A model generated the notes under the pieces. The model searched no databases. It saw only the letters and a list, made by a program, of their open reading frames with translations, and was not told the DNA's origin. DNA of 64,000 nt, taken from assembly GCF_011065895.1 (NCBI RefSeq), contig NZ_JAALCR010000013.1:62001-126000 (forward strand). Reading direction: 5' to 3'. The stretch's first letter is position 1; each line of letters begins with the position of its first letter. The position numbers were made by a program, and so were the translations under genes. This document shows, piece by piece, positions 37,078-41,087 of the stretch. Source of the DNA: Paludisphaera rhizosphaerae (GTDB lineage Bacteria; Planctomycetota; Planctomycetia; Isosphaerales; Isosphaeraceae).

Positions 37078-38787
37078 ATGAATATCCAGGCAAGACAGGA
37101 TGTCGATCCCATGATAATACGTTTTCCGCGAAACGTTCGGGGCTGGGCGTGCGGCCTGGCTGCTTTCGTCATACTTCAGCCGGTCGGGGCCCTGGCGCAG
37201 GAAGAAGCAGGGGTTGTTCCTGCGGATGCCGCCAAGACCAGCCGGGTGCGTCGATTCTTCGACCCATCCTCGTGGGGACGGAATAACGCCCCGACCGCCG
37301 GCCGCTATCTTAGGGCCCAGGACGCGCCGGTCTCCGCCTCGGCTGAGGGCGTACGTCCCAGTCCGAGCGATCCCTATCTCCAGCGCGTGATGCAGGAATC
37401 GACGCCTCCGATCGGCGTCCCGAGTGTTCCCTCTCCTGCGCCTCCGGTCGGCGATCCGTTTGGGGCGGGCACCTCGCCCGGGACGCCGGATCTCGCGGTT
37501 CCGGCTGCCGACCGTAACATCGGCGGCGGAGCACCGACCGAAGAGACCGCCGCCGTCGACGCCGCCGAGGATGAGGCCGACAAGGCCGATGAGCCGAAGC
37601 ACCTGCAGGACTTGCTGGGCTTCGAGGAATCGCCCATCAAGATCTACGGCTGGCTCCAGAACAGCTACACCGGCAACACGAACGGCCGGGGGACGCTGGG
37701 CGAGAACTTTGGCGTGAATCCCAACCACAAGGCCAACTGGTGGATGGGAAACCAATATTACATCGTGGTCGAAAAGGTCGTGGAGCAGGATGACACGATC
37801 AACTTCGGCTTCCGCATGGACAACATGTTCGGCCACGACTGGCAGTTCAACTACGAGCAAGGTTTCCTGAACGGCTCGTTCCCGTTGAACCACATGGGGT
37901 ACGACATTCCCCAGCTCTATGGCGAGGTTCACCTCCCGTTCCTGACCGAGGGGGGCATCGACGTCAAGGCCGGCAAGTGGTACACGATCGCCGGTTACGA
38001 ACAGGTGCCCGCGATCGCCCGCCCGCTGCTCTCTGTGCCTTACATGTTCAACTACGGCCAACCGTTCACCCATGTCGGCGCCCTGACCACCTGGCACGTC
38101 ACCGACAAGTTCAATCTCTATAACGGCGCCATCAACGGTTGGGACCGGTTCGTCAACGAGCGTTATGCGTGGGGCTACATTGGCGGCTTCTCCTGGACGA
38201 GCCAGGACGACAAGACGACCTTGGCCTTTACTGCCGTCTGGGGGCCCAACCAGTACCCATCTTTCCTGCCCAACGGTCAGCAGATCTACCCCACTGGGTA
38301 TGTCAACATCCCGACCCTCACCGGACTACGCAATCCGGGCTACTGGCGGAACGACCGAACCCTGTTCACGACCGTCGGCACGCACAAGTGGTCTGACAAG
38401 CTCACCCAGGTCATGGAAACCGACCAGGGCTGGGAGCGGGCCATCCCCGGTCTTGGCTCCGGCGGCGCCAACGGGGCGCCTCGCGACGGCACCTGGTTCA
38501 GCTTCGGCAACTGGTTCCTGTACGAGTTCCATCAGAAGCTGACCGGCGTGTGGCGGTCGGAAGTCTTCTGGGATCCCCAGGGCGCTCGCACGCAGCAGAT
38601 CGTCGACGGCCAGTACGTCGGCGACCGCTTCTATGAGATGACCCTCGGCATGATCTACAAGCCGGTCCCGAACCTCTGGATCCGGCCCGAGGCCCGCTAC
38701 GACTGGTCTCAGTATCACGCAGCCTTTACGGACGGGACCCGCAAGAGCCAGCTGACCCTGGCCGTCGACGCCATCATCCTGTGGTGA
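37078..38787 (+). CDS. Outer-membrane beta-barrel porin
   Basis: A 569-residue exported protein. The signal peptide (core GWACGLAAFVILQPVGALAQ) follows a short charged leader; ATG at 37111, which starts directly at the leader MIIRFPRN, is a credible alternative start. Residues ~45-165 are Pro/Ala/Gly-rich and disordered. From residue ~180 (SPIKIYGWLQNSYTGN) to the C-terminal ILW the sequence alternates aromatic and polar residues as in planctomycete BBP2-type outer-membrane barrels, and ends in an aromatic residue. The position between gltBD and amt hints at a channel for nitrogen compounds (inference). Terminators bracket it, so it is its own transcription unit. Confidence 0.82.
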   Translation: MNIQARQDVDPMIIRFPRNVRGWACGLAAFVILQPVGALAQEEAGVVPADAAKTSRVRRFFDPSSWGRNNAPTAGRYLRAQDAPVSASAEGVRPSPSDPYLQRVMQESTPPIGVPSVPSPAPPVGDPFGAGTSPGTPDLAVPAADRNIGGGAPTEETAAVDAAEDEADKADEPKHLQDLLGFEESPIKIYGWLQNSYTGNTNGRGTLGENFGVNPNHKANWWMGNQYYIVVEKVVEQDDTINFGFRMDNMFGHDWQFNYEQGFLNGSFPLNHMGYDIPQLYGEVHLPFLTEGGIDVKAGKWYTIAGYEQVPAIARPLLSVPYMFNYGQPFTHVGALTTWHVTDKFNLYNGAINGWDRFVNERYAWGYIGGFSWTSQDDKTTLAFTAVWGPNQYPSFLPNGQQIYPTGYVNIPTLTGLRNPGYWRNDRTLFTTVGTHKWSDKLTQVMETDQGWERAIPGLGSGGANGAPRDGTWFSFGNWFLYEFHQKLTGVWRSEVFWDPQGARTQQIVDGQYVGDRFYEMTLGMIYKPVPNLWIRPEARYDWSQYHAAFTDGTRKSQLTLAVDAIILW

Positions 38788-38815
38788 TCGTGGTCCAATC
38801 CGCGCCTCTCCCTTC

Positions 38816-38849
38816 CACGCCGAGGCTCTCCCCCTCGGCGTGAATTTTT
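38816..38849 (+). terminator. Intrinsic terminator of the porin gene
   Basis: A perfect 10-bp stem (38816-38825 with 38833-38842), a seven-base loop and the tail AATTTTT end 62 bases after the porin stop codon, just before the amt promoter. Confidence 0.9.
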
Positions 38850-38853
38850 GCGC

Positions 38854-38869
38854 TGGCACATCGGTTGCT
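38854..38869 (+). promoter_or_regulatory. Sigma-54 (RpoN) promoter for the ammonium transporter
   Basis: TGGCACATCGGTTGCT matches the -24/-12 consensus TGGCAC-N5-TTGCW at every defined position. The GG (38855-38856) and GC (38867-38868) dinucleotides have the required spacing. Transcription would start near 38880, leaving a leader of about 177 nt before the amt start codon. Nitrogen control of Amt by sigma-54 and an NtrC-like activator is established in proteobacteria. No activator gene or clear upstream activator site is visible in the window. Confidence 0.75.
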
Positions 38870-39056
38870 CTACGGCCTCTTCGACTCCCGCGTCGTGCAT
38901 GAAAAACCCCGTCGAAAAGCTCGCACCCTTATGTGCCTAAATCTCGACGGCGCCGTAGCTTCCGACGATGCGGAACGCGACGACTCGGCGACGTGCATCC
39001 TCGACCCGCCATCGATGAGTCCTCACTCTCTGCCTCCCTTGTAGAAGGACCTGCCC

Positions 39057-40454
39057 ATGAAACGTGCAGTGGCACCGTTTGCGTTACTCGTAGCCCTCGC
39101 GGCTCTTGCCCTGGTGCCGTTCGACACTGGCGTTGATCTGCCGGCCGGTGACGAGGTGAACGCCGGCAATGTCGCCTGGATGCTGACCGCCTCGGCTCTC
39201 GTCCTCCTCATGACGCCGGGTCTCTCGTTCTTCTACGGTGGAATGGTCTGTAGCAAGAACGTCGTGTCGACGATGCTCCAGAGCGTGATCGCTCTGGGCG
39301 TAATCAGCCTGCTGTGGGTGTTCGTCGGCTTCAGCCTGGCCTTCGGCAACGACCTTGGCGGGTTCGGGATCATCGGCGATCCGCGGACGTTCTTCATGTT
39401 CGACCACAACGTCGCCAGCTCGGTCACGCTGGGCGAGGGGGCGGACGTGATGAAGATGGGGATCCCGCTCCTCCTCTTCTCGATGTTCCAGTTGAAGTTC
39501 GCGATCATCACGCCCGCGCTCATCACCGGCTCGTTCGCTGAGCGGGTGCGGTTCTCGGCCTACCTGCTGTTCATCGTGCTTTTCAGCCTGGTGATCTACT
39601 CGCCGCTGGCCCACATGACCTGGCACCCCCAGGGCCTCTTCTTCAAGTGGGGCGTCAAGGACTTCGCCGGCGGCACGGTCGTCCACATGTCGGCGGGCTT
39701 CGCGGCCCTGGCCGGAGCGATGATCCTCGGTCGTCGTCACAGCCACCGGAACAACATCCCGCATGAGCCGGCCAACATCCCCTACGTGATGCTCGGCACC
39801 GGCATGCTGTGGTTCGGCTGGTTCGGCTTCAACGCGGGCTCGGCGCTCGCCGCCGACGGCATCGCCACCCTCGCCTTCGCGACGACCAACACGGCCTCGG
39901 CCATGGCGATGCTGGGCTGGATGTTCTTTGATTGGGCCCGCGGCAAGAAGCCCTCGGCGATGGGGGCGTGCATCGGCGCCGTCGTCGGCCTGGTCGCCAT
40001 CACGCCGGCCGCCGGCTTCGTCTCGGTTCGTCACAGCCTGGTGATCGGTCTGGTCGCCGGCATCGTCTCGAACCTGGCCGTCTCCATGAAGACCCGCTCG
40101 ACGCTCGACGACACCCTAGACGTCTTCCCCTGCCACGGCGTCGGCGGCATCGTGGGCATGATCCTGACGGGCGTCTTCGCCAAGGACGTCGGACTGTGGT
40201 TCGGTCAGACCCAGACGTTCATGTACCACATGATCGCCCTGGTGATCGTGGCCGTCTTCGCCTTCGTCGGTTCGTTGATCCTCTACAAGATCACCGACCT
40301 GATCATCCCGCTCCGCGTTCCCGACGACCAGGAGCACGAAGGTCTGGACACCAGCCAGCACGGCGAAGCCGCCTGGCGGCTCAACGGCCTGCTCAGCGGC
40401 CACGGCCACGGGGCCGTGTCGGTCGACGAGGTCCTCGTCACCACCACCGACTGA
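39057..40454 (+). CDS. amtB: Ammonium transporter (Amt/MEP family)
   Basis: A 465-residue inner-membrane ammonium channel with a signal peptide and 11 predicted helices. SALVLLMTPGLSFFYGGMV starts the core. VVHMSAGFAALAGA and FPCHGVGGIVGMI carry the two pore histidines equivalent to His168 and His318 of E. coli AmtB. WFGWFGFNAGSAL is another signature. The C-terminal ~45 residues form a cytosolic tail where PII proteins bind in other bacteria, yet no glnK gene lies next to it. A sigma-54 promoter precedes it and an intrinsic terminator follows, making it a monocistronic, probably nitrogen-regulated unit. Confidence 0.94.
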   Translation: MKRAVAPFALLVALAALALVPFDTGVDLPAGDEVNAGNVAWMLTASALVLLMTPGLSFFYGGMVCSKNVVSTMLQSVIALGVISLLWVFVGFSLAFGNDLGGFGIIGDPRTFFMFDHNVASSVTLGEGADVMKMGIPLLLFSMFQLKFAIITPALITGSFAERVRFSAYLLFIVLFSLVIYSPLAHMTWHPQGLFFKWGVKDFAGGTVVHMSAGFAALAGAMILGRRHSHRNNIPHEPANIPYVMLGTGMLWFGWFGFNAGSALAADGIATLAFATTNTASAMAMLGWMFFDWARGKKPSAMGACIGAVVGLVAITPAAGFVSVRHSLVIGLVAGIVSNLAVSMKTRSTLDDTLDVFPCHGVGGIVGMILTGVFAKDVGLWFGQTQTFMYHMIALVIVAVFAFVGSLILYKITDLIIPLRVPDDQEHEGLDTSQHGEAAWRLNGLLSGHGHGAVSVDEVLVTTTD

Positions 40455-40547: not shown

Positions 40548-41079
40548 ATGGACGCCCACTCGCAAATCGTCAACGCCTCAGCCGTCACCGAGGTATACGG
40601 ACGCTGGCCCAGCTTTCACGACGCCGAGGTGCATTGGATGAGGCTGGAGCGGGTGGGAGCGACTGCGGACGATCCAGGTCCGACTCTTGAAGCCCTGGTC
40701 CACGCCTTCGAGATGACTACGGAGGTTGGGCCGGACGGTCGTTACGTGCTCCGCAACCACATCCTCGTGCATTTCCGTTTCCAGGAGGTCGTGGATCTGG
40801 AACTGTCCGACTGGGGCATCCAGAACGTCCTATTCGGCCTCGCGATCAGGGACATCGCCGACCGTCAGCTGGAACGATCTCGGTTTGAGGTCGAGTTCAC
40901 AAGTTCCTTTGGCGTTTGTGCACTGTTCCTGTGCCGACGCGTCGAGGTGATGTCGGCCACTCCTTGTTCCGCGGAGGGCGTTCGACGGAGCGGCGACTGG
41001 GAAAAACAAAGGGGCCCCGACCAGCTTGGAGTTGGTTGGGGCCCCTTTGAAAACAACGATCAATCGCTAGCCGTCGTGA

Positions 41080-41087
<8 letters not shown>
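40548..41087 (+). CDS. Imm50-like immunity-family protein
   Basis: A 179-residue soluble protein. [43 protein letters not shown] and [12 protein letters not shown] fit the Imm50 family, predicted immunity proteins of polymorphic toxin systems that also occur alone. The recognisable domain ends near residue 142. The last ~39 residues are translated from DNA that forms the glutamine synthetase terminator on the opposite strand, and the stop codon lies within the 3' end of that gene (8-base overlap). The tail may be an accidental extension after loss of the original stop. No toxin gene is adjacent, so an immunity role is unsupported here. Confidence 0.65.
41000..41049 (-). terminator. Intrinsic terminator of the glutamine synthetase gene
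   Basis: A 17-bp stem with one mismatch-tolerant pair (41007-41023 with 41033-41049) and a nine-base loop. Read on the minus strand it is followed by TTTGTTTTTC, a good T-tract. It begins 31 bases after the glnN stop and lies within the Imm50-like reading frame. Confidence 0.88.

Follow-up and report, generated by a model that had tools for sequence, protein, structure and literature searches.

The amtB upstream region

The window analysed here (G000:C13:62001-126000) is a stretch of 64,000 nucleotides from the 8.05-Mb genome of Paludisphaera rhizosphaerae. In it an ammonium transporter gene, amtB, follows a porin gene on the same strand, and the features of the region are:

37078..38787, + strand: BBP2-type porin gene (PF07642, E 1.9e-53), the upstream neighbour and a separate transcription unit, with an intrinsic terminator after it
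38816..38842, + strand: stem-loop of the intrinsic terminator that ends the porin unit, a 10-bp stem with 8 GC pairs followed by AATTTTT
38854..38869, + strand: very probable sigma-54 -24/-12 promoter element, TGGCAC-ATCGG-TTGC-T, an exact match that is conserved among orthologues
38880, + strand: predicted transcription start, 12 nt past the C of the -12 GC, from sigma-54 promoter geometry
38880..39056, + strand: predicted 5' leader, about 177 nt long here and 154-177 nt long in orthologues, without sequence conservation
39057..40454, + strand: amtB, ammonium transporter of 465 aa, an ORF with its ATG at 39057 (PF00909, E 1.9e-117)

An Imm50-family ORF (window 40548-41087) lies between amtB and glnN. 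The element, TGGCACATCGGTTGCT, is on the + strand 188 nt upstream of the amtB start and begins 11 nt past the stem of the porin terminator, the arms of which are 100% complementary. The published sigma-54 consensus is YTGGCACG-N4-TTGCW; the element has GG at -24 and GC at -12 with exactly 10 bases between, and the window site, CTGGCACATCGGTTGCT, matches the wider consensus YTGGCACR-N4-TTGCW. The first-pass annotation had placed a sigma-54 promoter just after the porin terminator and 188 bases before amtB, with a fit to the -24/-12 consensus at every defined position. A re-read of the window returned the same sequence and coordinates, an exact consensus match, the terminator stem at 38816-38842 and the amtB ATG at 39057. 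The remark that no other clear match occurs, gltB and glnN included, also holds, as this is the sole TGGCAY-N5-WTGC in the window on either strand.

The frequency of the motif sets a limit on what a match can mean. About 0.04 exact matches are expected per 64 kb, and a search tolerating two mismatches finds 33 matches in the window where chance would give 42; thus, only the exact match stands out. The genome scan that the annotation had proposed, carried out with patterns only, found 5 exact matches to TGGCACN5TTGCW and also 5 to the reversed control, while the looser TGGCAYN5WTGCW gave 15 matches against 12 for its control. As the genome-wide count equals that of the control, the motif match alone is weak evidence and no proof. 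This equality favours the view that the element is a chance match in a GC-rich genome and that a housekeeping sigma factor transcribes amtB. That view is rendered extremely improbable by the conservation described below, in which 22 of 30 loci keep the element at a fixed distance although its flanks are saturated, and no sigma-70-like site was found in 38400-39300.

Conservation among amtB orthologues

Orthologues of amtB (E <= 1e-150) were collected at 30 loci in 29 of the 45 family genomes. Of these loci, 22 have a TGGCAY-N5-WTGC-like element with a score of 12 or more out of 14 at -180 to -203, and one further locus has the element at -347. A score of at least 13 between -205 and -178 is reached at 19 of the 30 loci, compared to about 0.03 expected from a background of 3 in 75,396 positions on the reverse strand and far upstream at these loci (about 0.001 per locus), a rate which, the loci being related, is not an independent-sample probability. 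Between genera the core bases are 79% identical while the flanks are saturated at 27-29%, and the best-conserved 15-nt window starts exactly at the element. In the 20 aligned promoters the GG, A and GC are invariant, the C/T position is always Y and the neighbouring position always R; these preferences (Y, R and W) beside the invariant bases agree with the sigma-54 consensus. The site of Paludisphaera soli JC670, for example, reads TGGCATGGCGGTTGCA (L030). It is this footprint among orthologues, rather than a single match, that settles the observation as real.

The remaining seven of the 30 loci are without an intact element at the usual position or elsewhere in the sequence searched. These include two genomes (G017 and G008) in which glnK directly precedes amtB and the 1.5 kb before amtB contain no sigma-54 site, four loci at which the element is absent (both copies of G029, G012 and G035), and G009, in which it is degenerate. 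Outside the orthologue set, sites are found in an amtB paralogue clade (~45% identical) in several members of the family and class, at distances of about -160 to -300 that were derived by hand from match coordinates. Relatives of amtB in Myxococcus (~70% identical; L034 and L035) carry TGGCACTGGCCCTGCT 59 nt upstream of the matched start.

A conserved element of this kind might be the binding site of another regulator, with its likeness to sigma-54 promoters being coincidental. No activator site was found alongside the element, as such a reading would allow, but the exact GG-N10-GC spacing and the agreement of every position with the base preferences of sigma-54 oppose it, as do the universal presence of rpoN in the good family genomes and a similar element upstream of rpoN itself; the reading is considered very improbable.

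The predicted start and the ATG lie 154-177 nt apart in the orthologues, mostly 172-177 nt, and yet sequence conservation of the leader among orthologues is absent despite this near-constant length. A structured RNA or riboswitch was rejected, with no Rfam match and an alifold SCI of 0.02 (z +0.7) in the genus, and a small ORF was likewise rejected as no frame is conserved. The 6-mers CTCTCC (14/21) and TCGTGC (10/21) are over-represented, and both a CTCTCC tract and, near the 5' end of the leader, a TCGTG motif recur among orthologues, accompanied by a recurrent TGCC-N17-TGC pattern just before the amtB ATG.

RpoN, its activators and the nitrogen relay

The genome carries a complete rpoN gene, encoding all three sigma-54 domains (AID, CBD and DBD), and rpoN is present in 26 of 26 good family genomes; the absence of the gene, which the first-pass annotation had named as fatal to its reading, is not what was found. 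Eleven full-length Sigma54_activat proteins, the AAA+ enhancer-binding proteins (bEBPs), are also encoded, including REC-AAA-Fis activators with the architecture of NtrC. Together, the conservation among orthologues, the complete RpoN and the eleven activators indicate that amtB is very probably a transcription unit of its own, driven by a sigma-54 (RpoN) promoter whose -24/-12 element is 38854-38869. The earlier promoter claim is thus upheld, on fixed-distance conservation, an intact RpoN, the presence of bEBPs and an intergenic region in which no sigma-70-like site was found.

Similar elements occur elsewhere in the genome and family. A GG-N10-GC element, typically TGGCATAATANTTGC, lies 83-177 nt before the start of rpoN in 30 of 30 family loci examined (L088-L117), and that of the source genome is on the - strand at G000:C45:18893-18908 (L087 1501-1516). 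The rpoN element overlaps a sigma-70-like promoter, TTGACA-N17-TAAGAT (L111, by eye), an arrangement which suggests that rpoN is autoregulated by activation or occlusion. A candidate site reading TGGCACAACGCTTGCT (L025, G000:C11:17283-17298) is ~185 nt before a gene with a DnaK-like product start, EKIIGIDLGTTNS, in agreement with the enrichment of chaperone genes in the predicted sigma-54 regulons of Planctomycetia (PMC12316311). Another, TGGCATGGACGATGCA (L083, G000:C10:131461-131476), has an NtrC-like activator gene (L002) on one side and a gene for a ferritin-like (Dps-type) protein on the other, a possible activator-target pair. TGGCATCATGGTTGCT (L080, G000:C5:150988-151003) is upstream of a DUF1559/pilin-like planctomycete gene, as judged by eye.

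No shared activator (enhancer) site was recognised in the region upstream of amtB or in the leader. Upstream dyads outnumber those in Markov shuffles; however, they were rejected as activator sites since they appear to be parts of coding regions or terminators in close relatives, and among them no site recurring across genera was recognised. Three bEBPs were profiled across the family. Four members of the genus carry the amtB site without having the bEBP on C4 (L006), and the one on C28 (L012) is absent or poorly conserved in G006, G013, G016 and G025, all of which carry the site; both bEBPs were rejected as the activator. The third (L003, G000:C29:29363-30760), a REC-AAA-Fis protein, is present in 26 of 26 good genomes, and its gene adjoins one for a HAMP-HisKA-HATPase histidine kinase. 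This protein is a candidate activator of amtB and only a candidate, as its universal presence means that co-occurrence cannot test it. Inspection of protein starts by eye in the neighbourhoods of the bEBP genes revealed no nitrogen gene.

A narrower explanation is a classical Ntr promoter, in which sigma-54 acts with NtrC under GlnD-uridylylated PII and NtrB. In its favour, amtB belongs to the standard targets of sigma-54 in Pseudomonadota (PMC12316311), and activators with NtrC architecture are encoded in the genome. The components of the cascade argue otherwise. Among 10 of the 11 activators compared to NCBIfam, the best score against the NtrC (NR I) equivalog is 463.1 with a cut-off of 558.6; the eleventh (L004) carries a different, long N-terminal region. 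No protein exceeds the cut-off for the GlnD uridylyltransferase, the best reaching 28 bits against 519.4. In the main PII protein (L076 1501-1848, G000:C11), the one compared here of two PII-like proteins, Val replaces Tyr51 (RGHEVTV versus RGAEYVV). The PII gene, glnN and gltB, which were the nitrogen genes inspected, have no sigma-54 site nearby. The classical Ntr promoter is therefore held to be unlikely. The PII proteins from the glnK-amtB units (G017 and G008) have Phe at the Tyr51 position (by eye).

The first-pass annotation had also advised looking for an NtrC-like activator: REC-AAA-Fis proteins exist, and none of the ten scored over the NtrC cut-off. The reading as a sigma-54 promoter stands, while NtrC-type nitrogen control is only a possible extension of it, with no GlnD or NtrC over cut-off, a PII without Tyr51 and no enhancer site recognised. 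With NtrC and GlnD below cut-off and Val at Tyr51 of PII, the standard Ntr cascade seems, on its sequence signatures, to be absent from this bacterium, although the genome may encode a divergent NtrC.

Sigma-54 and ammonium uptake in the Isosphaeraceae

The sigma-54 promoter suggests the following course of events. The intrinsic terminator would insulate amtB from the upstream porin gene, and RpoN-RNA polymerase would bind 38854-38869 as a closed complex, to be opened by an AAA+ enhancer-binding protein, a predicted partner. Transcription would start near 38880, giving the ~177-nt leader, and amtB would presumably be induced by low ammonium. Nitrogen control of the promoter is likely. The enterobacterial GlnD-PII-NtrB-NtrC relay is probably not what signals to it. 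A more tentative proposal, which we regard as plausible but somewhat less than even in probability, is that the Isosphaeraceae control ammonium uptake by sigma-54 through a non-Ntr activator and sensor, with a PII that is not uridylylatable at Tyr51 and no GlnD.

The arrangement shares with the sigma-54/NtrC glnK-amtB promoters of Pseudomonadota a GG-N10-GC -24/-12 element before an ammonium transporter gene, together with RpoN and REC-AAA-Fis activators in the genome. By contrast, the unit described here is from a different phylum and is without glnK, an NtrC site was not found, PII is without Tyr51, no GlnD or NtrC equivalog is over cut-off, and the leader varies little from a length of about 175 nt. 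According to a 2025 survey of sigma-54 regulons, nitrogen regulons are enriched mainly in Pseudomonadota, where ammonia permease is named as a target, and in a few other classes; the enrichment is absent from the other classes examined, and Planctomycetia is outside those listed (PMC12316311). For Planctomycetia the survey predicts rpoN autoregulation and finds chaperone genes enriched (PMC12316311). The present sites are likewise sequence-predicted and include those of rpoN and a dnaK-like gene, whereas the conserved amtB site in most of one planctomycete family distinguishes them from the survey (PMC12316311). A sigma-54 promoter has also been proposed for the thioredoxin gene RB10378 of the planctomycete Rhodopirellula baltica (PMC2754498); unlike amtB, this is a stress gene of another family, and the passage describing it gives no conservation analysis. 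A search of open-access literature found no report of amtB being controlled by RpoN in planctomycetes.

Since nitrogen sigma-54 regulons are not enriched in Planctomycetia (PMC12316311), the amtB promoter is known in kind but unexpected in this lineage, for which it is, as far as found, new. The conservation is evidence from phylogeny for control of ammonium uptake by sigma-54 in a family of planctomycetes, and the family-specific matrix of 20 promoters can be used to find the rest of the regulon. What surprises is that the standard Ntr relay seems to be missing, which turns attention to the activator and the signal that work the amtB switch. If the input is indeed of a non-Ntr type, the link between sigma-54 and amtB would either be older than the Ntr cascade or be the result of a rewiring independent of it.
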